The notes under the pieces are model-generated. The model ran no database searches. It was not told where the DNA came from and was given only the letters and a program-made list of their open reading frames with translations. The translations under genes and the position numbers were made by a program. A stretch of DNA of 33,491 nucleotides from NCBI GenBank assembly GCA_028873825.1, contig JAPPNM010000038.1, positions 1 to 33,491 of the forward strand, in the 5' to 3' direction. Positions 3,221 through 27,041 of the stretch are shown one piece after another; the first letter of the stretch is position 1, and each line of letters begins with the position of its first letter. The DNA comes from Gemmatimonadota bacterium. GTDB taxonomy: Bacteria; Gemmatimonadota; Gemmatimonadetes; Longimicrobiales; Gaopeijiaceae.

Positions 3221-3649
3221 ATGAACCGGACGCTGGCCATCGTAAAGCCCGACGCCGTCGCCGCCGGCAGGGCCGGACAGATCATCGCGCAGCTCGAGTC
3301 CGCCGGGCTCCGCCCGAGGGCGGTTCGCATGCTGACCATGACCCGGGCCCAGGCGCGGTCCTTCTACGAGGTCCACCGGGATCGTCCGTTCTACGACTCC
3401 CTGGTTGCGTTCATGACCTCCGGTCCCTGCATCCCGATCGTGCTCGAGGCGCCCGGCGCGGTCGGCAGGCTCCGGCGGGCGATCGGGGCCACGGACCCGG
3501 CCGAGGCCGCCCCGGGCACGGTTCGCCGGCTTCACGCCGAGTCCAAGGAGCGCAACGCTATCCACGGATCCGACTCGGACCCGAACGCCCGGCGCGAAAT
3601 CGGGTTCTTCTTCGCGGAGTGCGAGGTCCCGGACGGAGGCCGCGGATGA
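3221..3649 (+). CDS. ndk: Nucleoside diphosphate kinase
   Basis: 142 aa; MNRTLAIVKPDAV, catalytic NAIHGSDS motif. Confidence 0.97.
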   Translation: MNRTLAIVKPDAVAAGRAGQIIAQLESAGLRPRAVRMLTMTRAQARSFYEVHRDRPFYDSLVAFMTSGPCIPIVLEAPGAVGRLRRAIGATDPAEAAPGTVRRLHAESKERNAIHGSDSDPNARREIGFFFAECEVPDGGRG

Positions 3650-3707
3650 ACCCGCGTGAGCGACACCCGCGCGAGCGCCCCCTTTCCGGAGACATGCCGA
3701 GAACCCT

Positions 3708-4223
3708 ATGTTACAGATTGACCTGCTTCGCCTGCGGCGGAGTCGCACGCTCGAGCTGAGCGCGTCGATCGAGTCCGGCCACGAGATCTGGACCGGTTCC
3801 GAGCTGAAGTTTGCGGATCCGGTGAAGGTGGCCGGGTCGGTCGCGGCGACGGCCGCCGGAGGGGTCGTGGTGCGGGGCTTCTGGAAAGCCCCCATGCGCT
3901 ACGACTGCGGTCGCTGCCTGAGGAAGTTGCGCCTCGAGGTGGAGAGGCCGCTAACGCTGGTCTATGTTCCGGCGGACGGGCGGGAGGTCTCGGATCCGGA
4001 GATCCGAACCCTCGGGACCCGGGAGACCACATTGGATCTGACGGAGGCGATTCGCGAAGAAGTCGTTCTGGAGGTTCCGCGGTACCTGGTGCCGCGCGAG
4101 CGGGAAGACGGACGCTGCACCGAGTGCGGCGACCCGGTGGATGCCTTCAGCCGGGAAGAAGAGGAACTCGGCTCCGGGACCGACCCGCGGTGGTCGCCCC
4201 TGAGAGCCCTGCGAACCGAATAG
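3708..4223 (+). CDS. yceD: YceD/DUF177 family protein (23S rRNA accumulation protein)
   Basis: 171 aa; CGRCLRKL and CTECGDP cysteine pairs, located directly upstream of rpmF as is typical. Confidence 0.85.
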   Translation: MLQIDLLRLRRSRTLELSASIESGHEIWTGSELKFADPVKVAGSVAATAAGGVVVRGFWKAPMRYDCGRCLRKLRLEVERPLTLVYVPADGREVSDPEIRTLGTRETTLDLTEAIREEVVLEVPRYLVPREREDGRCTECGDPVDAFSREEEELGSGTDPRWSPLRALRTE

Positions 4224-4236
4224 GAAGACGATACCC

Positions 4237-4416
4237 ATGGCGGTTCCCAAGAAACGCATCTCCAAGCAGCGGAAGCGGAAGCGGCGTACGCACTACAAGG
4301 CTTCGGAAGCCACCCTCGGGACCTGCTCCGGAACCGGCGATCCGAAGCTCCGCCACCGGGTCTGTCCCACCTCGGGGGCTTACCGGGGCAGGGTGATCTT
4401 CGAAGTGGCGGAATAG
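4237..4416 (+). CDS. rpmF: 50S ribosomal protein L32
   Basis: Short ORF absent from the supplied track; reads MAVPKKRISKQRKRKRRTHYKASEATLGTCSGTGDPKLRHRVCPTSGAYRGRVIFEVAE; canonical yceD-rpmF-plsX order. Confidence 0.95.
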   Translation: MAVPKKRISKQRKRKRRTHYKASEATLGTCSGTGDPKLRHRVCPTSGAYRGRVIFEVAE

Positions 4417-6452: not shown

Positions 6453-7382
6453 GTGAGAACCGGACTGCTGTTTCCCGGCCAGGGGTCCCAGCACGTAGGG
6501 ATGGGACGGACGCTGGCGGAGTGTTTTGCGGAAGCCCGCGAGACCTTCGCCGAAGCCGACGAAGTTCTCGGTTTCGCGCTGTCCCGGCTGGCCTGGGAGG
6601 GTCCCGAGGAGGTCCTCACCGCAACCGAGAACGCCCAGCCGGCGCTGTACGTGCACTCGCTGGCGGTCTTCCGCGTGGTGCGGGCCCGGCTGGGGCCCAT
6701 CGTTGCCGCCGCGGGCCATTCGCTGGGGGAGCTGTCGGCCCACGGGGCCGCGGGCACCTTCGGTTTCGCCGAGGGTCTGCGCGCGGTGCGGCGCAGGGGG
6801 GAGCTCATGGCGAGGGCGGGAGAGACGGCTCCGGGCACGATGGCGGCCGTGCTCGGCCTGGGCGCGGCGGATACCGCCGAACTGTGCCGCGAGGCCGAGG
6901 AGGCGGATTTCACCCTGGTGGCCGCCAATCTGAACGCGGACGGCCAGGTCGTCTTCAGCGGCGACGTCTGGGGAATCAACTGGATCGCCCGGGCCGCCAA
7001 GAAGAAGGGCGCGAGACGGGTGATGCCCCTCAGGGTGTCGGCCGCATTTCACTCTCCGCTCATGCGACCCGCGGCCGCGGAATTCGAGGCCGCCCTCGCG
7101 GAAACCCGCTTCGGCCGGCCGAGCTTTCCGGTCGTGTCCAACGTGACCGCTCGGTCCGTCGGGGATCCCGGGGGGATCCGGCGGCTTCTCGTTAGGCAGC
7201 TGACCTCTCCGGTCCGCTGGACGGAGTGCATCGCCGAGATGCGCCGCAGGGGCGTGACGGGCTTCCTGGAACTGGGGCCGGGCAAGGTGCTCACGGGCTT
7301 GAACCGGCGGAACGCATGGGGTATACCTACCCAGGCGCTGGGGACGCCCGAGTCGATCCATTCCATGGAGGACCCGACATGA
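6453..7382 (+). CDS. fabD: Malonyl-CoA-ACP transacylase
   Basis: GTG start; [16 protein letters not shown] active site, AFHSPLM. Confidence 0.97.
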
Positions 7383-8125
7383 CGGACACTTCGGAGCTCG
7401 CCGGCGGGGTTGCGATCGTCACGGGCGGATCGCGGGGGATCGGATTGGGGATCTCCCGCGCGCTGGCCCGCGGGGGCGCGGGCGTCGCCGTGGTGGCGAG
7501 GAACGGCGAGAGGGCCGCCGCCGCGGCCGCGGAACTGGAGGGAGAAGGGCACGCCGCCCATACGTGCGATGTCGCGGATCCGCGCGCGTGCAGGAGAACG
7601 GTTGCCGCCGTCGAGTCGCGGCAGGGCCCGGTGACCATCCTCGTGAACAACGCCGGGATCGCCCGCGACAACATCCTGCCGCGCATGCGCGACGAGGACT
7701 GGTCCCGCGTGATCGACACGAACCTCGGGGGGGCCTTCAACATGATCCGCGCCGTCTCCCGCGGGATGATGAAGCGCCGCGCGGGATGCATCGTCAACGT
7801 CACTTCGGTCATCGGTCTGGTGGGAAACGCCGGACAGGCCAACTACGCGGCCTCCAAGGCGGGCCTGCACGGGCTGACCCGAACCGTCGCGAAGGAGCTG
7901 GCGTCGCGGAACATCCGCTGCAACGCGGTGGCGCCGGGCTTCATCCGGACCGACATGACGGCGGGACTTCCCGAGGCGCGGGTGAGGGAACTGAAGGAAC
8001 GGATCCCCGCCGGCCGCCTCGGCGAGCCCGCCGACGTGGCCGGAGTCGTCCGGTTCCTCGCGGGACCGGAGGCGGGTTACATTACGGGCCAGATCATCGC
8101 GGTCGATGGCGGCATGGCAATGTAG
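7379..8125 (+). CDS. fabG: 3-oxoacyl-ACP reductase
   Basis: ATGA overlap with fabD; Rossmann [23 protein letters not shown] catalytic motif. Confidence 0.97.
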
Positions 8126-8193
8126 GCGTTCAGCTTCCCGGCCACGGCGAGGGCCGGATCGGCCGCAACGACAACCGTACGGAGAAGACAAGC

Positions 8194-15676: not shown

Positions 15677-15861
15677 GTCAGTTGCCGGAAGGACAATGCG
15701 CGCCTCCCATGTGAAGGTCGATTGACCGCAACCGCTCCCGGAAGGGCTTTGCGCCGTCGCGGTGAACTCACCGGAGGCAGTCCATTGCGGTCCATTGCGC
15801 GCGTGGGCGCGGGGATGTTCGCCGTGGAGGTCGGGGCGTTATGGGGGCCCCACATGGTCCG

Positions 15862-16416
15862 TTATCTCCACACGGGATAGAACCCGGCTCTTGTGAGCAT
15901 ACCGATCTCGTTGCCGTTGGCGGCGGTGTTGATGGTCACAACGATCCTACAATCGGCCGCGTACCCTGCCTCTTGCACTGCGCGGTCGACTCGTTCCCCA
16001 AAGCTGGTCAGTTGCTCCCCGGCAACTTTGCCCTGCGGGAAGTCCTCCAGGACGCTCACAAGCGATGGGGGGATCTTTCCGCGCAACTCGGTGCCAGGGG
16101 CCCAGTGCTCGTGCACCGCCACGCTGAACCGGCCATCCCGAACCGTGACGTCAAAGGTACGGTAGTAATCTCCTGGGTCGTTGCCTCGCCAGCATGGCAG
16201 GACGCCGATTTTCTCTTCGGCCAGTGCATCCCTCAGGCTGTCGACAGCGATCTCCAGGCTGTCGATTCGTGCCTGTAGAACCTCGGGCAACGCTGAATCG
16301 GGGTCTTCCCGGTTAGCTGCTACGAGCAGGGCGCAGGCGAGCCCTACGACCGCCAGCGCCGTCATCAGATCGGCAACGGCAGGCCAGGCCGTTGTCCGGG
16401 TCCGATACCTTCTCAC
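15862..16416 (-). CDS. MotB/TolR/ZorB-like stator subunit with short non-OmpA C-terminal domain
   Basis: 184 aa; single N-terminal TM with PAVADLMTALAVVGLACALLVA, matching the conserved Asp-containing MotB/ZorB motif (ADFMTAM/ADLMTAL); start overlaps the upstream stop by 4 nt (ATGA). Confidence 0.75.
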   Translation of the reverse strand: MRRYRTRTTAWPAVADLMTALAVVGLACALLVAANREDPDSALPEVLQARIDSLEIAVDSLRDALAEEKIGVLPCWRGNDPGDYYRTFDVTVRDGRFSVAVHEHWAPGTELRGKIPPSLVSVLEDFPQGKVAGEQLTSFGERVDRAVQEAGYAADCRIVVTINTAANGNEIGMLTRAGFYPVWR

Positions 16417-17894
16417 GCGGTTCCCTCACCGGGTATAGTGTTCGGGGCCTCATCGCGCGAGCGCCGCCGACGCCTCCACCACCACCGACGCTTCCGCGGC
16501 GGTGCCTGCAGCGCTTCCGCTAGCTCCCGAATCGCTTGCGCGTGAACCTCGGCGAGCTGTCGAATCACTTGGCCCAGATCTTCCGTCGACCTCGCGAGCC
16601 CGGCCAGCATGTCACCCGTCTTGTCGTGCGCGGAATTCAGTGCCGAGGAGGTCTTCCCGATTCGGCCCACAACGTACCCAAGCTCGCCTTCCGCGTCGCC
16701 CAGCCTGGTGTTCACGGCCGCTACGTGCTCGGGGAAACCGTTTAGCACGGCCACCAGCTTATCGCTGACCCCTTCTAGGTCTCGCACTGTCTCGTTGATG
16801 AGTTGTTTGCTGACCTCTTGAAGGCGCTGGACGGTCGTGTTCAGGAGTTCGCTCTCGTGTCTCTCGAGACGTCCTCGAAGCTCTTTCGCATCCTCGCGCA
16901 GCTTGCTCTGAAGTTCGGCTACATGCTGCTTGGCTTCGTGACCGAATTCACGACCCAGCCTGCCCGACACTTTTTTGATGCTCTCGGCCATCGTGTCCGG
17001 CAAGCCATCTACACTTTTAACGATGTCGGCGGTTGTGGAGACCAGTTCGTGAATGGTGCGACCATACTGCCTTTGCGCTTCATTCAGGTGCTCGGTCACA
17101 ACGTTCTGCCACTCGATGGTCCTCGCTAGGCCATCGGCGACCCCGTCGCGAAACTTGGTCACATGTGGTTCGATCGCATCGCTGAACTTGCGGCCGAGAG
17201 ACTCCCCACTCCCTTCGACCGCCGAGGCCACCCGACCGGGAAGGCTTTCGACCGATTCCCGGAAGTCCAAGGTGGTTTCGGCAAGCCTGGCGGCCGCGTC
17301 GTTCACCGACGCAGCCACTTTCTGGCTCGTGATGTTCAACTTGCTGGCCACCTCGTTCACCGACGCGGTTACCTCCTGGCTCGCAGCGTCCAGCCTGTCG
17401 GCCGCCTTGTCGTGCTGGGAAGTCGCCCCATCAATCACGCTCTGCAGGCTGGACGTCGATTGAACTAGGTCGGCGGTGGTCGAGGTCAGCGCCGCTACGT
17501 CTGCGTCGAATTTGTCAGCCGCCTTACCGAGCACGGTGGCCGTCTTGTCGAGCTGCTCGAACATCCGGGGCACGCGGGCGATTGCGCGCCGCAGTTCCTC
17601 GCCGAGCCGCTCGCCGATGATCTCGGCCGTGGTCCGGGCCAGCCCACCTTCCGCTTGGGCAAGCTGTTCCGCCTCCTCTTTGCGCAGGTCGGACAGGAAG
17701 CGGTCGAGTTCCGGGTTGAAACGGCGATTGGCCCAGGGCAGGAGCCCCCAGAGTATGATCAGGTTGCCGAGGACGCCCGTGCCGCTCGCGAACAAGGCCC
17801 ACCCCATCTCGTCCAGCAATGGGTTGATGGCGTCACCCTGGGACGTGTCGCCAAATATCAGGTACAGTGCAAGCGCGCCCATGGTACCGCCCAC
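16413..17894 (-). CDS. MotA/TolQ/ZorA-like channel: TM2-TM3 and long coiled-coil tail (C-terminal part of interrupted gene)
   Basis: 493 aa from the first ATG; TM2/TM3 then ~430 aa of heptad-like Ala/Leu/Asp/Val-rich sequence with many repeating segments, ending PPRKRRWWWRRRRRSRDEAP. Confidence 0.75.
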   Translation of the reverse strand: MGGTMGALALYLIFGDTSQGDAINPLLDEMGWALFASGTGVLGNLIILWGLLPWANRRFNPELDRFLSDLRKEEAEQLAQAEGGLARTTAEIIGERLGEELRRAIARVPRMFEQLDKTATVLGKAADKFDADVAALTSTTADLVQSTSSLQSVIDGATSQHDKAADRLDAASQEVTASVNEVASKLNITSQKVAASVNDAAARLAETTLDFRESVESLPGRVASAVEGSGESLGRKFSDAIEPHVTKFRDGVADGLARTIEWQNVVTEHLNEAQRQYGRTIHELVSTTADIVKSVDGLPDTMAESIKKVSGRLGREFGHEAKQHVAELQSKLREDAKELRGRLERHESELLNTTVQRLQEVSKQLINETVRDLEGVSDKLVAVLNGFPEHVAAVNTRLGDAEGELGYVVGRIGKTSSALNSAHDKTGDMLAGLARSTEDLGQVIRQLAEVHAQAIRELAEALQAPPRKRRWWWRRRRRSRDEAPNTIPGEGTA

Positions 17895-17918
17895 CCCTGT
17901 GGCCAGAGAAATGGTACC

Positions 17919-18155
17919 TTAGTTGCGCAGGTGCTCCCGAAGATCCTCGTGCTTCCTCTGCGCCTCGTCCGAGAAATGAACCCAGTCGAGGTGGCGCCCA
18001 CTCGCTACCCGCGCACCGATGTCGGCGGTCAGTCGATGGCGCAGCTGTCGAAGCCGGTCGCGAGGCTTGTCCGACCGAATCAGGTGCATACAGCGGGCGA
18101 TGTATACTAGAACAAGCAGTGCGACGAAACCGAGAACGCCGTGTGTTGCGGTCAC
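17919..18155 (-). CDS. TM1 and cytoplasmic loop of the MotA/TolQ/ZorA-like channel (N-terminal part of interrupted gene)
   Basis: GTG start overlapping the upstream TGA (GTGA); reads MTATHGVLGFVALLVLVYIARCMHLIRSDKPRDRLRQLRHRLTADIGARVASGRHLDWVHFSDEAQRKHEDLREHLRN then TAA, in the same reading frame as the 16413-17894 ORF. Confidence 0.65.
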   Translation of the reverse strand: MTATHGVLGFVALLVLVYIARCMHLIRSDKPRDRLRQLRHRLTADIGARVASGRHLDWVHFSDEAQRKHEDLREHLRN

Positions 18156-19477
18156 GAAGGTCCATCCGTGAGGATGCGCAAGTCGACCCGGTAGGATGTC
18201 GGCTCCACTCGCGTTTCTTCTACGAAGTACCGGAGTTGTAGCGTGGAGCCGGGGTGCTCGGCCGTATTGTCGTCCGGCGTAGACCACTCGTCCCAACGTG
18301 GCCGGGCGGGAGGCTGCATCAGGCCCCCAATGTTCAGGTGGAGGGCGGGCGCCGAATCCGATTGCCGCACCGATTGCCGCACCGCATCACAGTCGACCCG
18401 TACCACCAGGCGTTCGCCATCGAGCTCCAGGGTGAATGGACTTGGCATGCCTCCCGACCCTGGAGCGAGCGACGCTTCCGTGGGGCCAAAGCGGCTTGCG
18501 CGGGCGAATGTGCCCCATAGCTCCACATTGTCGCCGGTATAGCAGCCGTAGGTTCCATCGCCTGCGTCGCGCCAAAGGGCGTACTGCTGCTCTCCCGGCT
18601 CGCCGCCTTCTGGAAGGGCTTCAAAGGCGACCTCAGCGCGAGGCTGCTCGTTGCCGGCCGCAGTGAGCAGCTCCCAGACAGCCTCGATCTCCTGGCTGTC
18701 GGCGTCCCGCTGAACTGCCCCCGCAATCTCGTTCAACGCCTCGGCGCTATGGCCAAAGAGCAGTACATAGAAAGGCACGCCAACCGGAGCCTGCAACCTT
18801 GGCTTCCAACCCGGCATGCGCTCGCTGTACCAGCAACCGAGCCTGCCATCTGCGGGCGGACAGCGAGTTCGGTGGAAGGCCCCCCAATACGTGCCTCTGA
18901 CGCCTATCAGTCCGAAATGGAAATCGCCCTCTCGACGCTCCGCCGAAGCTAGCCACGGGACCAGGTATCGGGCCACGTCCAGTGCGCCGGTCAGTTCGCC
19001 GGTCCCGACAAGATCTGTGATGATGGCTCCTCCCTGCGCTCGGCCGGTGCGAAGGTCCATAAGGACCTCCTCGATGGCCAGACTGAGCCGGGATTCCGTG
19101 CCCGTGAAGATCTCTCTACGAAAAACCGGGTATTGCGGCAGAGTTTCAACGCTCTCGGCCACGCCGTGCCACTGGAGCGGCACGCCAGGATAGACGCGAC
19201 CCAAGTGGTCCGGAATCCACTGCGCAACCGTACGCAGTTCGCCGCCGACCACACCCGCCGCCGGCTCCCCCGGTGGTGGGACAAACCCCGACATCGGGCT
19301 CGACAAGTCCAGGTAGATGGCGAGCCGGGGCGGCTGCGCGGAATCCACGACTACGGACGGCAAGGGACTGGAATGGGGCCACACCGGTTTGATCGAAGCG
19401 GACACAGAAAACGTAGTAGCCAGCTCCCGCGCATCGCCGACTCCGCACGACCCCAGCACCAGGGCGACGGTGTACAT
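18152..19477 (-). CDS. Lipoprotein with von Willebrand factor A-like domain
   Basis: Start at MYTVALVLGSCGVG gives signal peptide with lipobox-like LGSC; LAIYLDLSSPMSGF resembles a vWA MIDAS DxSxS strand, and GGAIITDLVGTGE a later vWA strand; an upstream ATG at 19576 is an alternative start. Confidence 0.6.
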   Translation of the reverse strand: MYTVALVLGSCGVGDARELATTFSVSASIKPVWPHSSPLPSVVVDSAQPPRLAIYLDLSSPMSGFVPPPGEPAAGVVGGELRTVAQWIPDHLGRVYPGVPLQWHGVAESVETLPQYPVFRREIFTGTESRLSLAIEEVLMDLRTGRAQGGAIITDLVGTGELTGALDVARYLVPWLASAERREGDFHFGLIGVRGTYWGAFHRTRCPPADGRLGCWYSERMPGWKPRLQAPVGVPFYVLLFGHSAEALNEIAGAVQRDADSQEIEAVWELLTAAGNEQPRAEVAFEALPEGGEPGEQQYALWRDAGDGTYGCYTGDNVELWGTFARASRFGPTEASLAPGSGGMPSPFTLELDGERLVVRVDCDAVRQSVRQSDSAPALHLNIGGLMQPPARPRWDEWSTPDDNTAEHPGSTLQLRYFVEETRVEPTSYRVDLRILTDGPS

Positions 19478-19527
19478 GCCGAAGGTGGGTACCAAGGGGC
19501 CAAAAAACCGGCCGGGTTGCAACAACC

Positions 19528-20334
19528 TCACGCGACGCTTCCTTTTTCGACCATTTCCGGGCCGCTCTCCGACCATCTGCCCCTCCCGAGCTTTCTCAGT
19601 TCCTCTGTCCGGCCACCCAATGCGCCGCCGCTCTCATCTTCGAACCAGCGTTCCGCCGACCTGGGCGACTTGCTGAAATCCGGGACAACGAAGAAACTCC
19701 GGTCGTTCGCCCACGGGTCGCAGATCATCAGGACCGCCTGTCCGGGTTGGCCGTCCAAGCCCCGAACGTCCGCGTCGATCCCAGTGTTTGCCAGTGCGGC
19801 CTTGAAGCCTTCCGCGTTGAAGTGGCCGTCGCCGTCGTCCCGGTAGCGTTTCCAGGCCTCCATCAGCTCCTTCCCGAAGTCCGGGCGGGGGGTGGGTTCT
19901 TCACCTGTCTCGCTCGGTGATTCAGGAACGGCCTGGCCGGTTCCCCGGTGCTGTCCGGCTTCCATCAACTCCATGGCCAGTCTTTCCATTCGGGTGTCGT
20001 GGCGGTCAAGTCGATGGGCCAGCTCCCCCATCTGTTCGCCGATGTGCTCCAGTGGTGTGCCGAGGCGTTCCGGCAGGGCGGCTATGCGCTCCAGTTGGTC
20101 ACGGTGGCCCTTCAGCGCGACGACAACATCCTGAGATGCTCGTGCCAGGACCGAAGCGTGCGACTCGGGCCGCGGGAAGAGAAAGCACGCGACTCCCGCA
20201 ACCACCAACGCTGCGATCACGACGGGCAGCCAGGGGCGCGTAGCGGGCAGGAGATCGCCGAAGCCCGCCCAGACGGCGCCGGTCAGAATGCCTGTGGCGA
20301 CAAAACCGAAGCCTACCAGTGCTTTCCGGCCCAT
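19528..20334 (-). CDS. Two-TM coiled-coil protein of unknown function
   Basis: ATG 20334 lies 5 nt after the Hsp70-like stop; TM segments ALVGFGFVATGILTGAVWAG and WLPVVIAALVVAGVACFLF, then heptad-like region and a soluble C-terminal domain (PWANDRSFFVVPDF...). Confidence 0.7.
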   Translation of the reverse strand: MGRKALVGFGFVATGILTGAVWAGFGDLLPATRPWLPVVIAALVVAGVACFLFPRPESHASVLARASQDVVVALKGHRDQLERIAALPERLGTPLEHIGEQMGELAHRLDRHDTRMERLAMELMEAGQHRGTGQAVPESPSETGEEPTPRPDFGKELMEAWKRYRDDGDGHFNAEGFKAALANTGIDADVRGLDGQPGQAVLMICDPWANDRSFFVVPDFSKSPRSAERWFEDESGGALGGRTEELRKLGRGRWSESGPEMVEKGSVA

Positions 20335-20339
20335 TCCGC

Positions 20340-23132
20340 TCACCCGTCGCCGGAAGGGTCGACGACCCCTCGTTCGAGCACCGCTTCCCAGACCCATGCG
20401 GCGACCGGAGCCTGGTAATCCAGCTGTGCGTCACCCACCCGCTCACCCTTGTGCCGGAGATTCTCGTTGATTCGCCGGGTCGAGTCGACGGGCAGCCTGG
20501 TTACCTCTTCCGGCCTGTCCGCGTCTGGACTACTCAGAGGAAGGCTCGGTCGGATCTCCGCGAATTCAATAGTCGTTTCCTCTCCTCCGGTCCGGAAAGG
20601 AACCCGCTCGAACCACTCGACAGTATCTCGTCTTCCCTCCGGGTCCACCTTGGTGAGCTCGACCAGTGTGTGCGAGAACCAGCTGTTGCGTACGCTGTCC
20701 GGGTCCCTCGACTTGCCCACGACTTCGTTAACCACGTCCCTTTTTGCACGGTCGGCCTGACCGGGTTCGTGGTGGTCGGTCCTCCACTTGTCGCTTCGCG
20801 GGAGAGTGGCGCCTGTATCAACGCCGGGCCACAAGCGATGGGCTGCCTCCATAACGAGGTTCTGCATGGCTCTTCCGATTTCGTCGTAGCCCTTGTCCTC
20901 GTGCCAGAGCTTCCAGCCGTTACCGCGCAGGTACACGCGGATTCGCAGTCGCTCCCGATCAGCCGTCCGCGGCAACCAGTGTTTGGCCAGATAGGCGGTG
21001 AGGCTACGCGCCATGAACTCGGCGGCCAGGAAGAAGTACCGGCGGACAATCCTCCGGCCCCTATTCGGGCCGGTCTGGTCGTCGAAACCCCGCACGTCGA
21101 GCTCGCTGCAGCCGTCAACTCTCTCCGCCTCCAATCCGAACAGCCCGGTCAGACCCTTGGTCCTCACCCATGCCGCCAGATTCGCGAGTCTGGCGTCGGG
21201 ATCGGATCCCCAGCCGTCCGGGAGCAATCCGTCCTGTTTCGCGATCAGCTTCAACAGGACGTTGCCTCCCAGCTTCACGCTGTCGGCCGTGTCCTCGAAC
21301 GCGTCACCCACAGCCGAGATGATCAGATCGAGCGTCCCGCCACCCAGGTCTCCCACCATGTTCACGTCACCGGGTCGAGCAGTTCCGACCTTGGTTGCAT
21401 TCGACTCGTCGAACAACCCGACCCTGTCGTGCAGGGCGAGCGAGCACCCGAGACACTTGCTGCCGTCTTCCAGTACCCTGCCCAGCGTCTGCCTGTATTC
21501 CGTCACGTCCCTTGGCGGTGTTCGAAGGGGGTAGGTGAAGGTGAACCGAATCGCGTCCGTGGGGGACGGCCGCCCGTGCCGGATGAACGCTTCTGCCAAG
21601 ACCTGCTCGACGATTCGGTCGAGATAGATCTTGCGCAGGTGCTTTTCCTTGCCCTGGAACGCCATCGAGGTGTTCCACTTGAAGTTGGAGATCACATGGT
21701 CGGCAAGATCACCGCGCAGCACTCCGGCGGGCGGCACCACATAGTCGCGCACTGGCTGCCAATCCAGGATTCTGGGCGTCTGGATCGACAGCTCCTTGAC
21801 CGCCTTGATCGTAAGGATCTCCGACGGCCAAAGACCTTGGAGGTCCCCCGTGGGCTCCTTCACGTAGCGCGGAAACCACGTGCCCTGACTCAGGAGCCCG
21901 TCCTCGGACTCAATGTGTTCGAGATTCTCGCTTACGTGCAGCGAGAGCCTGTGCCTGCCGTTTTGCGACAGTTCGGGGTTGAGGTCGAGCGCCTGCGCGT
22001 TTCGTCCTTTCAGCTTTATGGCTGCGGTAGTGTGCGAAGTGCCGAAATCGATCCCGATCTGCATAGGTACGGTGGCATCCTGGACGCGGTCCAAATGGAC
22101 CAGGTACAGGCCGATCTCGTCGTCTCCCTTCGAGGCGCAGAGCGCCACCGGCGGGCCAGCCGCGTGGCGAGCGTCCTGCTTCGAGAACCGTACCGGGTAG
22201 CTTCGGTTGTCCTGCGCCTCGGTGCGGGACAGCGCGACGCCGGACTCCTGCCGTTCACGCCAAAGCGTATCGATCCGGATGCGGCGGTCCGTACAGTGCT
22301 GATAGATGTAGTACGCGCTCCAGTTCGGATCACGGAACCGCGGCCAGACCATCCAGTGCGCCTTGTGGCCCACTTCGACCTTGGCCACGAAGAGCATCGA
22401 GTCGCTGCGTCCCCGCATGCGCAGGCTCCACTTTGCATGCCGCCCGCTCTCGTCTATTTCGGGCGGTTTCGGCCTCTCGGGGAGTGAACCGTCACCCTGC
22501 CTGCCGCGCGGCAGGAGGTCGAAATACCGCCAGCGCAGCGGGAAGTGCGGATAGAGGGGCGCGCCTCGGGGAGTATCGCCGTTGGGGACGGAAGCCTGCT
22601 CCATCGGCGTACAGCTGCGGATCCCGATGTCGCGCCTGCGCAACACCAGCGTGCGCTGCAGGGTGACGAGGCGGTGCCCATGCGTCCGTGACCAAGTCAC
22701 CACGTACACCTGCCGGCGTGCCGCATCGTCGTTGAAGAACGCGATCTCTCCCACCCGTTGCAGGTGTCGGAGGTGGTCGTCCCAGATGCCATGCACCTTG
22801 TCCTCGCCGGCGATCTCGAACTCGACGCACCAGTATCTGCGCTCACCCGCTGTGACCACCGAGTGCTCGCGCAGGAACTCGTCTTGCTCGGCGCGCTTCA
22901 GATCGTTCAAGTCCGGCGGAAGACCTGCTTCGTCTCTCCTTGGGAGGAAGACGGTGATCGGTTCATTGCCGCTCCACCGCACCTGGAGCGCCGCCCCGCC
23001 GCCGTATCCGGGCTCGACCGATACGCCGACGAAGATCCTCGTCCACGCTGGGGGTGTCGCATGGGGGTGTCGTCGCTTGCACGCCTCATCCATGCGCGGA
23101 TTCGCCCGGCGCTGGAGGTCCCGCTTCCCCAC
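20340..23132 (-). CDS. Hsp70/actin-fold ATPase with ~356-aa novel N-terminal domain
   Basis: Phosphate-1 motif MQIGIDFGTSHTTAAIKL (from 22064) and phosphate-2 motif GDLGGGTLDLIIS (near 21340); adenosine-motif-like VYLRGNGWKLW. GTG start at 23132 has GGAAGGTAGG upstream; ORF remains open to ATG 23195. Confidence 0.82.
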   Translation of the reverse strand: MGKRDLQRRANPRMDEACKRRHPHATPPAWTRIFVGVSVEPGYGGGAALQVRWSGNEPITVFLPRRDEAGLPPDLNDLKRAEQDEFLREHSVVTAGERRYWCVEFEIAGEDKVHGIWDDHLRHLQRVGEIAFFNDDAARRQVYVVTWSRTHGHRLVTLQRTLVLRRRDIGIRSCTPMEQASVPNGDTPRGAPLYPHFPLRWRYFDLLPRGRQGDGSLPERPKPPEIDESGRHAKWSLRMRGRSDSMLFVAKVEVGHKAHWMVWPRFRDPNWSAYYIYQHCTDRRIRIDTLWRERQESGVALSRTEAQDNRSYPVRFSKQDARHAAGPPVALCASKGDDEIGLYLVHLDRVQDATVPMQIGIDFGTSHTTAAIKLKGRNAQALDLNPELSQNGRHRLSLHVSENLEHIESEDGLLSQGTWFPRYVKEPTGDLQGLWPSEILTIKAVKELSIQTPRILDWQPVRDYVVPPAGVLRGDLADHVISNFKWNTSMAFQGKEKHLRKIYLDRIVEQVLAEAFIRHGRPSPTDAIRFTFTYPLRTPPRDVTEYRQTLGRVLEDGSKCLGCSLALHDRVGLFDESNATKVGTARPGDVNMVGDLGGGTLDLIISAVGDAFEDTADSVKLGGNVLLKLIAKQDGLLPDGWGSDPDARLANLAAWVRTKGLTGLFGLEAERVDGCSELDVRGFDDQTGPNRGRRIVRRYFFLAAEFMARSLTAYLAKHWLPRTADRERLRIRVYLRGNGWKLWHEDKGYDEIGRAMQNLVMEAAHRLWPGVDTGATLPRSDKWRTDHHEPGQADRAKRDVVNEVVGKSRDPDSVRNSWFSHTLVELTKVDPEGRRDTVEWFERVPFRTGGEETTIEFAEIRPSLPLSSPDADRPEEVTRLPVDSTRRINENLRHKGERVGDAQLDYQAPVAAWVWEAVLERGVVDPSGDG

Positions 23133-25045
23133 GATTGACCTACCTTCCAGTCGGCGGCCCTCTGGCCCGTCACCGCGTTCCAAAGGCCCGCCCACTCCGA
23201 GTCGGGCAGACCGGGAACCGGGCAGAACAGGGTACCGGGCGACGTGAACCCCATGACCACGCCCCCCCGCCCGACACGCTCGAGGGCGTAGCGCGCGAGA
23301 TCTTTGCCATCTGTGGCTCGGTGGTCTTCGACAAGTGCGTCAAGCGACACCGGCCGATTGTCCCGCCGCTTCTCGTTCGTGCGCAGCTTGAGTTCCCCCA
23401 CGAACAGGCCGAGGAAAAGCAGCTCGAGCTGGCGGATGGCGGTGGGGCGGTCGTCGGCGATCGCTTCGCGAAAATAGTCGGTCGCGGCAAGTGGGTGAGG
23501 CCAACCGTTCTGTGCCATCAGCCTTGGGTCGACGAAGCTGTCCAGGGTGGCTCGAACATTGGACCTCCGAACCCTTTGGAGCGCACCCGACTTCTTGGGC
23601 GACGGCGTGAGTCCCTTGTCGCCGCGGATCTCCGGCCAGTACACATGATTCGGAGCGGCGGGAGTGGAGGTCGGCTCCTCTCTCACCCACTCTGCCAGCC
23701 ACCTCAAGATCTCGGAAGCGGCTCGATCCGGAGAGGCAAGGCGGGGGGACCTCAGTTGGTGTTGGTGCTTCAGGCGCTGCCGTATCGCAGCTTCACTCCT
23801 GAAGGCTCCCCGGGTCCGTTCGGGGCCGTCACCGTTGAGCATCCCGCACAGCCATTGCAAGTTTTCGGCGTAGCGACCGCGGTGCTTGGCGAGCTCCTCG
23901 GCGACTCGTTGCCGCCGGTCTCCCAACAGCTTGCTGAGTATCGGCTCGATGTAAGGCATATCCGAGGAGCCAAGCACCTTCTGGTAAACCTCCAGTATGT
24001 TGACGAGCGCTTTCCCCTGCGCTGCCAGGTCTCCGATCGTGCCGCCGCCGGGCAGCCCGGTTCCCGCGCCGAGCCGGGACGGATCCTCGGCGTCGAGGTG
24101 ATACAGGCCGCTGGTGTAGGCGTCGTCGTTGAGGAACTGGCGCAGGCAGCAGATGGCGGCCAAAGCGTGCGGGTAGGCCTCGAGCATCGGCTGGTGGTTG
24201 TCTCCAGAGAAAACGCGTGGCGCCATGGCCGCCCTTGGGATCCCGACAGGCACGGTGGCCACGTGCTCTGCCAGACGGTTGCCATAGTAACGGAGTCCCG
24301 AGTGAGCGTTCTCCTGCATCACCTTGTTGCGGCGCTGTGCTCTGAGCCGGTTCTCTCCAAGGTGCTCGTGGAGCTCGTCGAACTCGAACCAGTTTAGGAG
24401 CATCACCGCCATGACCTGCCGCTCGTCCACACCCGAAAGCTCCTCCGCGAGTGTAGGACCCACAGCGGCCCCAGTGCCTCCCACACCCGACCCCACGACT
24501 GCGACGCGACCCCGCACGTTGAGCAGTTGGTGGTAGGACTCGTCGTGGTTGATTTCGGGATCGTCCGGCCTAGTATCGTAGCTCTTGAGCTTGAAGAGAA
24601 GCGATCCGACGGCCGGAGATCCCATCATCCCGCGCGAGAACTCGATGTCCCGCTGGCCGGGAGACAGGATGCAGGTGAGATAGTCGGAGTTGGGGTAGTG
24701 CTGCCTGAGGCTGGTCATGCCGTCGTTCAGGAAGTCCTGGTTCGCCCCTTCCGGCAGCGGGGTTATGGCCCGCAGCTCCGGCCACCGCCGGCCGATGTCG
24801 CCGTCGTCGCCCCACAGGCGGGAAGGGTGCCCCTCAAGCACTCGGCGGAGCGTCTGCCACGCCGTCGGTCGGTCCGCGTCGGCCCCGTCGCCACTGTCTT
24901 GGTCCACGAGATACAGGGCTGGTAAATCCATCGGCTTGCTCCCGTGCCGGAAGAAGCCCAAGGGGTCGCCGAGGGCGTGCAGGCGCATGAACGCCAGAGC
25001 CACATGGGCGCCGGTGCCGCCGCAACCAATCAGTGTGTTGGCCAT
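22907..25045 (-). CDS. Tubulin/FtsZ-like GTPase (Tubulin_2-like)
   Basis: 712 aa; N-terminal T1-like NTLIGCGGTGAHVALAF and T4 signature-like VVGSGVGGTGAAVGPTLAEEL, consistent with tubulin superfamily GTP-binding loops. Confidence 0.72.
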   Translation of the reverse strand: MANTLIGCGGTGAHVALAFMRLHALGDPLGFFRHGSKPMDLPALYLVDQDSGDGADADRPTAWQTLRRVLEGHPSRLWGDDGDIGRRWPELRAITPLPEGANQDFLNDGMTSLRQHYPNSDYLTCILSPGQRDIEFSRGMMGSPAVGSLLFKLKSYDTRPDDPEINHDESYHQLLNVRGRVAVVGSGVGGTGAAVGPTLAEELSGVDERQVMAVMLLNWFEFDELHEHLGENRLRAQRRNKVMQENAHSGLRYYGNRLAEHVATVPVGIPRAAMAPRVFSGDNHQPMLEAYPHALAAICCLRQFLNDDAYTSGLYHLDAEDPSRLGAGTGLPGGGTIGDLAAQGKALVNILEVYQKVLGSSDMPYIEPILSKLLGDRRQRVAEELAKHRGRYAENLQWLCGMLNGDGPERTRGAFRSEAAIRQRLKHQHQLRSPRLASPDRAASEILRWLAEWVREEPTSTPAAPNHVYWPEIRGDKGLTPSPKKSGALQRVRRSNVRATLDSFVDPRLMAQNGWPHPLAATDYFREAIADDRPTAIRQLELLFLGLFVGELKLRTNEKRRDNRPVSLDALVEDHRATDGKDLARYALERVGRGGVVMGFTSPGTLFCPVPGLPDSEWAGLWNAVTGQRAADWKVGQSWGSGTSSAGRIRAWMRRASDDTPMRHPQRGRGSSSAYRSSPDTAAGRRSRCGGAAMNRSPSSSQGETKQVFRRT

Positions 25046-25049
25046 TTAG

Positions 25050-25547
25050 CTAGAATCGAACCCCATTTCGAGTGTTCTTCAATTCAATTCGGTTCACTTT
25101 CGACTGACCGGGGTAAGCCCTCTCGAACCACCTGCGGGCGCCCTCCCTGCCGACGAACCACCCGGCCAGGGCACCGATCAACGAGCCGAGAAACCACATG
25201 CCCGCATTCCACCATTGCTGTTCCGGCGACGACGGCAACGGATTGAGGGAGAAATTGTAGAGGGCGAACACGCCGAAGACGACGACCACGATCAGAATCG
25301 GAGTCCACGCCTTCGTCACCGGTTTCGGTGGATCCGGATGCTCCCATGCCTTCAGAGCCTCGGACCATGCTAGCCATCGAAGCCCACCTACGATCAGTCC
25401 GGCCAAGAGCACGGAGACGACGAGCCAAATCATTGAAAGAGCCTGAACCAGCGTCTCGTTGACGAACGAGCACCCGGAAGTCAACGCGGGAAGAGCGCAG
25501 AGAAGAATCCGCGCCGCGGTGCCGCTCTGCGGGCTTCGCGTTCGCAT
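25050..25547 (-). CDS. Small lipoprotein/membrane protein, first gene of the operon
   Basis: 165 aa from ATG 25547 with AGAGGAGG 9 nt upstream; ILLCALPALTSGC lipobox-like signal, TM segments ALSMIWLVVSVLLAGLIVGGL, ILIVVVVFGVFALYNF and MWFLGSLIGALAGWFVG. Confidence 0.65.
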   Translation of the reverse strand: MRTRSPQSGTAARILLCALPALTSGCSFVNETLVQALSMIWLVVSVLLAGLIVGGLRWLAWSEALKAWEHPDPPKPVTKAWTPILIVVVVFGVFALYNFSLNPLPSSPEQQWWNAGMWFLGSLIGALAGWFVGREGARRWFERAYPGQSKVNRIELKNTRNGVRF

Positions 25548-26012
25548 CGGTAACATCCTCCTCTGTGAAGTTCGGTCTGAACTGAATGAGCCCCACCGGC
25601 ACGGGACCATGCAACCGCCAGCGTGGCGGCGCGGATGGAAAAGAGGTGGCGCGACACGGATTCGCAAGGTTGAGCGCGGTGGTACATGTACCGCGCGCTC
25701 CCGCCGCTCCTCGGTCACGACGATAGTGCGGCAGCCGAGGCTACGCTGTCCTTCATCCCTCGCGCCAAGGCCGGCACTCCCCCGCGGCGCGCGCCCGGGA
25801 AAGCGAACGCATCGCGACAGCCGGGCCGGTCCTCGATGCGCTGCTCGACCGCGGCGCCCTTGTTGCAGAGGTGCCAGAGCGAATCGCATCGGGTCCATCC
25901 CGTATATGGTTGGGGTCTTGCGGTTCGGGAACATGCCTTATGGTGCATTCCGGGAGGCTCTCTGTCAATCAATCGGCACGGAAAGTGGCCGGGCCATCGG
26001 CATTGAACGGCT

Positions 26013-27041
26013 CTATTCGCCCGAAACGCCACCGGCCGGTCCTCCCCGCCGGCGCGCGCCGCCCGGCAGAAACGTCAGCTCCCCGTCCATGATCCGCGCC
26101 AGCTCCTCCTCCCTCCGCCAGTAGGCCTCCAGCTCCGCGACCTCCATAGACAGCAGCCGCCGCTCGTGTTCTTCGTGGACCGCGATTTCGAGCGCGATCA
26201 GACCGACCCGTCCGACTTGGTGCAGAGGCGTCGCCCGCCTGAGAATCCTCGACGGGAGCCTCCCCGAGCCCCCCGCAACCTCGATTAGCCGCGCCGCGTT
26301 GTCCACCCGCCCTTCCGAAGCACCGGCGAAGTGGCGGTGGGCGAGGACCCTGCGCAGCGTCCGGCTGGCCTCCCGTCCGCGGAGAGGGAACCCGCCGCCG
26401 GTTTCTCCGCAGTGGAGGCAGAAGACCCGGATCCCCACCGACTCTCCCTCGCTTCGCAGGAGCAGATCGTGCCCGTACCGGACCCGGTCGACCGGACGTC
26501 CGCAGTGTTCGCACTCGCCGCCGCCGCGCCAGGCGGTGCGTCCGAAACGGAGCAGGCGGGCCCCGCCCGTTACGAGCCCGGGCAGCCGGTCCCAGACCAG
26601 CCAGGCGGCGACGAAGCTCATTCCGCCGGTGGCCCAGGAGCCGGCGATCGTGGCGGCCGCCGCCACCGTTCCCGCCGTCGACAGCTTTTGGTACCGCTCC
26701 CTCCGCCTTCTCAGTTCCCGCCCGTACCGCCACCACGCCTCTTCGCGCAGTTCGGCGCCCCCCACCCGCACGATCTCCAGCGGCCCGGCCCTGAGCAGCG
26801 CCACGTTGGCGGTGCTCGAGAGCAGACGCCCCCGGTCGGCGACCAGCTTCTCCAGCTCTTCCAGGGCCTCCCAGCGCGACTCCATCGGGACCAGCGACCA
26901 CCTGGAGCAGGCGCGGCAGATCAGCCAGAGGCGGCCCCGCGCGGGATCGTAGGCCACCCGGCGGCCCCGGTCCACATGTTCCAGGGAGTCGTTGGGGGCG
27001 AAGTCGCGGCCGCAGACCAGGCACCTCCGGTACATGCTCAT
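26013..27041 (-). CDS. Uncharacterised protein with two zinc-ribbon-like CxxC pairs and a central hydrophobic segment
   Basis: 342 aa; CLVCGRDF...CRAC, CEHCGRP...CLHCGE; hydrophobic AGTVAAAATIAGSWATGGMSFVAAWLVW. Confidence 0.7.
   Translation of the reverse strand: MSMYRRCLVCGRDFAPNDSLEHVDRGRRVAYDPARGRLWLICRACSRWSLVPMESRWEALEELEKLVADRGRLLSSTANVALLRAGPLEIVRVGGAELREEAWWRYGRELRRRRERYQKLSTAGTVAAAATIAGSWATGGMSFVAAWLVWDRLPGLVTGGARLLRFGRTAWRGGGECEHCGRPVDRVRYGHDLLLRSEGESVGIRVFCLHCGETGGGFPLRGREASRTLRRVLAHRHFAGASEGRVDNAARLIEVAGGSGRLPSRILRRATPLHQVGRVGLIALEIAVHEEHERRLLSMEVAELEAYWRREEELARIMDGELTFLPGGARRRGGPAGGVSGE

Follow-up and report, generated by a model that had tools for sequence, protein, structure and literature searches.

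A bacterial operon pairing tubulin-superfamily and Hsp70/actin-fold proteins with a secreted lipoprotein and an optional ZorAB-like motor

Introduction

What is encoded by an operon in which a tubulin-like and an Hsp70-like protein stand beside the subunits of an ion-driven motor? The question is raised by contig JAPPNM010000038.1 of a Gemmatimonadota bacterium (order Longimicrobiales, family Gaopeijiaceae; GenBank assembly GCA_028873825.1, a draft genome of 3.3 Mb), of which positions 1 to 33,491 of the forward strand, a stretch of 33,491 nucleotides, were analysed and are referred to here as the window. A sequence-only reading of this window had proposed seven tightly packed minus-strand genes coding, among others, for two nucleoside triphosphatases (NTPases) of the tubulin and Hsp70/actin folds, a von Willebrand factor A (vWA)-like lipoprotein, a MotA/TolQ-type channel and a MotB-type stator, in which the NTPases would take the place of the effectors of Zorya anti-phage systems. 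Here, we describe the operon as one member of a family in which the tubulin-like and Hsp70-like proteins belong to a constant core.

Results

The closely packed run of seven genes was confirmed on the minus strand from 15862 to ~25550 (window frames), and coding signal was clear and the frame open in six of the seven. Family profiles built without the window sequence (window-free profiles) were run against all 383 window frames. The tubulin profile recovered gene 2 (22907–25045) with E=1.2e-16, and the Hsp70 profile recovered gene 3 (20340–23195, with the true start probably near 23093 rather than at the open reading frame (ORF) limit of 23195) with E=2.4e-16. The product of gene 2, a highly divergent GTPase-like protein of the tubulin/FtsZ superfamily, carries the T1 and T4 motifs GCGGTGAH and GSGVGGTGAA, whose glycine signatures GGxG and GGTG are kept in 29 of 29 alignment rows. 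Pfam searches with the window tubulin and Hsp70 gave no convincing family match; a tubulin homologue from Dysgonomonas matched Pfam Tubulin (PF00091) at 8e-5, with its PF13809 match below the cut-off. Beyond approximately residue 300 the window tubulin could not be aligned with confidence, and the QxN...H..E block conserved in the family is altered in it. All 50 matches listed by Foldseek for its AlphaFold model were tubulin, FtsZ or CetZ; since the model is of low confidence (predicted local distance difference test, pLDDT, of only 47.7), this result was used only as agreement with the sequence evidence.

The product of gene 3 has a long N-terminal extension, as does its family, and contains the motifs IGIDFGTSHTT and GDLGGGTLD, which correspond to the phosphate-1 and phosphate-2 motifs DFGTxxT and DxGGGTxD present in the family. 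In particular, the columns DFGT, KW, E and DxGGGTxD are kept in all or nearly all of the 29 rows, including that of the window, and the family profile matched MreB (5e-6) and DnaK (8e-4) in the PDB. A chaperone proper would give a Pfam HSP70 match and have a substrate-binding domain behind the ATPase domain; no such match was obtained in the window or its relatives, and the C-terminus of these proteins is unrelated. Fold and profile searches agree, and both identities, as previously proposed from the motifs, are solid.

Tubulin and Hsp70 are constant partners. Their genes are adjacent in every locus with room for both, they are fused into one protein of ~1,660 residues in Spirochaetota and in a Syntrophomonadaceae (loci L041, L047 and L048), and they co-diverge, with a Pearson correlation of 0.963 between the two distance matrices over 29 loci that was reached in none of 5000 permutations. 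The natural fusion is direct evidence of the two folds acting as one unit, and makes polymerisation testable within a single protein.

Relatives of the operon were found by tubulin searches alone, after which the neighbourhoods were read. The gene set and its order proved to be co-conserved in ~36 distinct loci, so that the association of tubulin-like, Hsp70-like and MotA-like genes suspected from the window recurs, in the same order, across phyla. The full arrangement (lipoprotein, protein with three transmembrane (TM) helices, tubulin, Hsp70, 1-TM protein, ZorA-like and ZorB-like subunits) is found in Gemmatimonadota, Bacteroidota and Spirochaetota, while core or partial loci in Cyanobacteriota, Bacillota and Acidobacteriota bring the range to six phyla. 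A motor-less core running from the lipoprotein through the 3-TM protein and tubulin to Hsp70 is present in further Bacteroidota and on Picosynechococcus plasmids, where its genes are annotated as hypothetical or unknown; partial loci occur in Acidobacteriota and Ruminococcaceae. Carriers are rare in the genomes sampled, namely 9 of 395 in the phylum of the window, about 13 clear cases among 299 in one Bacteroidota order and 4 of 296 in Spirochaetota. No relatives were detected in viruses (viral-contig scan and phage records), and those on plasmids are limited to four cyanobacterial records and one Prevotella replicon; plasmid records searched with the window proteins gave no match.

Several variants were noted among these loci. 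Three tubulin-like copies are present in Ruminococcaceae RUG14146 (G438; L049, L098), one of them with the Hsp70-like gene upstream and not downstream. The Bacteroidota order of G434 has a distant tubulin–Hsp70 clade (L091–L093) whose flanking genes differ; at two loci they include one for an OmpA-type protein. In several Gemmatimonadota loci, the ZorB-like gene is followed by a conserved gene for ~690–730 amino acids (L015, 14300–16369; L034, 296–2479), which is absent from the window.

The constant core of the family comprises a secreted vWA-like lipoprotein, the 3-TM protein and the tubulin-superfamily and Hsp70/actin-fold proteins, usually followed by the 1-TM protein. In the window, the lipoprotein is encoded by gene 5 (18152–19576), which was ranked first by the window-free lipoprotein profile (E=0.0033; hhalign probability 94.8%). 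Most lipoproteins of the relatives show the motif order D/E-x-S/T-x-S-M ... TD, and that of the window reads IYLDLSSPMSGF ... IITDL, with a degenerate metal-ion-dependent adhesion site (MIDAS)-like motif, DLSSPM for DxSxSM. No vWA match was found with Pfam in the window or its relatives, with PDB profiles, or with Foldseek, where the structure model used had a pLDDT of 52.6. The vWA-like character named in the sequence-only reading is supported by motifs only.

Gene 1 (25050–25550, with a likely ATG start near 25550 and a longer ORF extending to 25934) encodes a small membrane protein with approximately three TM helices and occupies the slot before tubulin, as does the 3-TM gene in relatives. 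Its assignment as the counterpart of that gene is one of position and topology, as profile searches and hhalign detected no sequence similarity to the 3-TM family of the relatives. Likewise, gene 4 (19528–20397), an inner-membrane protein with one or two TM segments and a helical region, lies in the slot of the relatives' 1-TM/coil protein, to which its similarity is not significant (hhalign probability at most 6%).

Many members of the family also encode a ZorAB-like pair bearing the motor Asp. In the window, the ZorB/MotB-like stator is gene 7 (15862–16416), whose TM segment bears the conserved Asp16 (AWPAVADLMTAL) within WPAVADLMTAL; the window-free ZorB profile ranked it first (E=5.6e-4; hhalign probability 84.9%), and the motif W[P/T/A]xxxD is common to all ten B subunits examined, that of the window and nine others. 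The B-subunit profile matched ZorB/MotB structures, and B subunits of the relatives matched PADLOC ZorB, the best of its families, at ~1e-9 to 1e-15. Two of them carry a Pfam OmpA domain (2e-14 and 8e-7), the peptidoglycan-binding domain for which the window B subunit gave no Pfam match. Gene 6 (16413–18185) encodes a ZorA/MotA/TolQ-like protein with three TM helices and a long coiled-coil tail. While several A subunits of the relatives match ZorA within the membrane region, a membrane-only ZorA profile gave nothing significant on gene 6 (best E about 3), and its assignment therefore rests on topology and operon position. PADLOC matches of gene 6 to ZorA were rejected as compositional, since most of their extent is in the coiled coil, a stretch that also matches Leo, Jet, Dru and apolipoprotein models; PDB profile searches with A subunits returned only coiled coils. 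The stator identity of the earlier reading was thus corroborated. Its MotA/TolQ-type channel stands in topology, coil and operon position, but not in similarity of the window sequence to ZorA. With the matches of the relatives to ZorB and ZorA, these profiles support a motor that is ZorAB-like rather than flagellar.

The motor is an optional part that the system gains or loses. Many genomes have the core without it, and they lack the ZorA-like gene elsewhere as well: 13 of the 15 genomes searched with a profile of the Bacteroidota A subunit yielded no copy, and motor-less operons are carried by most of them. On the tubulin tree, motor presence requires approximately seven state changes, at least five of which are forced by well-supported branches. 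The proposal that ZorC/D/E effector slots had been replaced is not supported in that form, as the core from the lipoprotein to Hsp70 occurs motor-free; rather than a Zorya system with swapped effectors, this is a tubulin–Hsp70 envelope system with or without a motor. Another observation on the motor concerns L096 (2198–3955), where a ZorA-derived protein (hhalign 96% to others) is kept and no ZorB was detected, a possible motor remnant that has lost its stator and the LGTMxG motif.

The operon is the sole content of an accessory island (15680–26030), a ~10-kb insertion between nadE and the next conserved gene. In four congeners the site is empty and nadE stands back to back with that gene, to the point that in one (G021) the ends of the two overlap by a few bases, and the tubulin-like gene was not found in any of the 22 congeners searched. 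GC content is ~0.64 across the operon and ~0.70 around it. Based on the clean empty sites and the absence from congeners, the operon was most likely horizontally acquired as a single unit.

A PADLOC scan of 61 flanking genes, made with no background control, gave five family matches, too few for a claim of a defence island, and a clear defence setting for the system did not emerge. TIR, caspase, CHAT and restriction-like neighbours are present in a few loci only. In Taibaiella koreensis (L045), a TIR-domain protein (7289–8131) lies directly upstream of the lipoprotein gene, with a caspase-domain protein (3442–4410) nearby. In Gemmatimonadota, CHAT-domain plus Sel1-repeat proteins adjoin the operon in L012 (16053–17606) and L014 (190–1698). 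The flanking genes do not decide between anti-phage use and envelope remodelling.

Discussion

The results are consistent with an operon that was acquired horizontally and codes for an NTP-driven machine spanning the envelope, an interpretation to which we give an even chance. In such a machine, the tubulin-like and Hsp70-like proteins would form one complex or co-polymer controlled by GTP and ATP, which the 3-TM and 1-TM proteins would dock on the inner membrane, while the lipoprotein may act as a sensor that monitors the periplasm or the outer membrane. In members with a motor, the cell wall would gate the flow of ions through ZorAB, this flow would move the coiled-coil tail, and the moving tail of the ZorA-like subunit could drive or switch the tubulin–Hsp70 assembly. 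This last part draws on an analogy with Zorya, whose defence needs ion flow, peptidoglycan binding and the tail, each one of them (PMC11890865). One tentative proposal is that an ion-driven rotary motor of the ZorAB type acts mechanically on an inner-membrane assembly in which tubulin-fold and actin-fold NTPases are mixed, either driving or switching it; we consider this possible though somewhat less probable than the contrary. The most likely use of the machine would be to sense and answer envelope perturbation, for example phage entry or wall damage, which the patchy mobile distribution fits; anti-phage defence, itself a conjecture, is the leading single candidate.

Several points weigh against this interpretation. 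The coupling of the motor to tubulin and Hsp70 is suggested by operon linkage only, the vWA fold of the lipoprotein is putative and has its support in motifs, and shared species history may partly explain the correlation of the tubulin and Hsp70 distances. Furthermore, most flanks look like housekeeping regions, and no recognisable effector, nuclease or toxin was found in the operon. The window copy itself could be in decay, wrongly assembled or a distant subtype, given the stop in its ZorA-like gene and its very long tubulin branch. Gene 6 is one continuous coding frame cut by a single in-frame TAA (17919–17921), with coding signal on both sides, and the tubulin branch of the window measures 6.4 changes per site in the tubulin tree. 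Between 22907 and 23195, 288 nucleotides are shared by the tubulin and Hsp70 frames and the coding signal switches frame at ~23.1 kb, which may reflect a plain overlap, an assembly error or a frameshift within a fusion of the kind found in other lineages; the lipoprotein gene follows that of the 1-TM protein, while in relatives it comes first. A decaying, non-functional copy in this genome, which is compatible with any function elsewhere, would account for the stop, the overlap with its change of coding frame, the degenerate MIDAS and the long branch. We nevertheless think it rather unlikely, as clear coding signal runs through six of the seven frames, all six of them open, the NTPase motifs and the motor Asp are unbroken, and a lone stop could result from misassembly of the draft genome.

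With regard to function, one possibility, in line with the sequence-only reading, is an anti-phage system of the Zorya type whose ZorAB part detects phage entry and whose effector is the tubulin/Hsp70 pair. The preference of the B subunits for ZorB among PADLOC families is in line with it, as are the island-like, patchy and horizontally acquired operon and the occasional TIR, caspase, CHAT or restriction-like neighbours. This mode of action is doubtful in view of the many full core operons that lack a motor, as do their genomes, of the few defence neighbours, of the lack of relatives in the phage records searched and their scarcity in plasmid records, and of the ZorC/D/E/F/G effectors, for which PADLOC gave no match in the scanned genes of the operon and its relatives. 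A machine for envelope remodelling or surface structures is similarly doubtful in our estimate. Tubulin/actin-fold assemblies would here shape or move the inner membrane, with the lipoprotein and the motor coupling them to the wall and the outer membrane, as is favoured by the two filament-type folds, the several membrane components and a theme shared with FtsZl1 operons (tubulin-like, vWA and OmpA proteins; PMC2875224). The patchy occurrence in sister species and the clean insertion of the whole unit are, however, unusual for genes of cell architecture, and no obvious genes of cell-envelope biosynthesis travel with the operon. Far less probable still is membership of the GTPase-centric conflict systems, built on DO-GTPase/GAP1 with tubulin or HSP70, although tubulin and HSP70, like extracellular vWA proteins, were reported from neighbourhoods of the conflict type by Kaur et al. 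(2020; PMC7159879). No window gene has a P-loop (Walker A) motif, Pfam scans of the operon genes gave no GAP1 or DO-GTPase match, and PF19993 (DO-GTPase2) was found in none of nine carrier genomes and in the positive control genome, the genome-wide search having been limited to DO-GTPase2.

If the envelope-spanning machine works as proposed, it would join tubulin, Hsp70/actin and a 5:2 ion-driven motor, three force- or switch-generating families not reported together before, in one system, and ZorAB-type motors would appear as interchangeable modules with uses outside Zorya. Should the mechanical coupling also be true, this mobile operon would have carried through several bacterial phyla the first known machine that links tubulin- and actin-family proteins directly with the proton motive force. 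For genome mining, the tubulin-like T4 motif beside an Hsp70-like gene offers a handle on genes annotated as hypothetical.

Among known systems, Zorya shares with this family the ZorB-like stator with the motor Asp, the OmpA peptidoglycan-binding domain (in relatives here), the ZorA-like membrane region of the relatives, the long coiled-coil tail and the horizontal mobility. It differs in that no ZorC/D/E/F/G was found here, where the operon has tubulin-like, Hsp70-like, vWA-like lipoprotein, 3-TM and 1-TM proteins instead, that the motor is optional and that the window B subunit has no detectable OmpA domain. MotAB, TolQR and ExbBD have the same A/B pair, as judged from homology for the B subunit and from topology for the A subunit; the closest PADLOC matches here are ZorB and ZorA, and genes for flagella or of the Tol and Ton systems are absent from the operon. 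The vWA-TolQ periplasmic force transducers described in 2025 (PMC12204202) also link vWA proteins to genes of 5:2 ion-driven motors, but their vWA protein is tethered to the membrane and either works in the manner of TolA or takes the place of TolR, whereas here it is a lipoprotein that stands beside a retained ZorB-like subunit as well as tubulin and Hsp70; neither that paper nor a MotAB survey (PMC12505986) mentions tubulin or Hsp70.

The FtsZl1 (Tubulin_2, PF13809)-vWA-GTPase-OmpA operons, for which Makarova and Koonin proposed envelope remodelling in 2010 (PMC2875224), likewise place a divergent FtsZ/tubulin protein beside a vWA-type secreted or membrane protein, sometimes with OmpA-domain proteins. 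PF13809 gave no match at E<=0.001 in the genome of the window, and the best relative reached 20.5 bits against a cut-off of 27. Moreover, the proteins here are shorter, lack the coiled-coil plus alpha-helical tail and are always paired with an Hsp70/actin-fold protein, and the P-loop GTPase that is a frequent FtsZl1 partner was found neither by Pfam scans nor, as a Walker A motif, in any window gene. The closest published mention of tubulin together with HSP70 and vWA comes from Kaur et al., whose systems join the first two with membrane vWA genes, yet have a core of DO-GTPase with GAP1 and no reported motor; in the GAP1-N2 type, tubulin and HSP70 are themes that do not overlap, while in the present family they are consistently side by side or joined in a single protein. 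PADLOC holds no system with this gene set, and no description of ZorA/ZorB with tubulin and Hsp70 was found in the literature searched (preprints and subscription papers excepted), which agrees with the expectation of the earlier reading. The nearest published systems each fail a defining test, Zorya on its effectors, FtsZl1 on PF13809 and the GTPase, and the DO-GTPase/GAP1 systems on the GTPase. On this basis the gene set appears to be new and every component fold is already known; the theme of tubulin-like and vWA proteins at the envelope was foreseen in 2010 and 2020.

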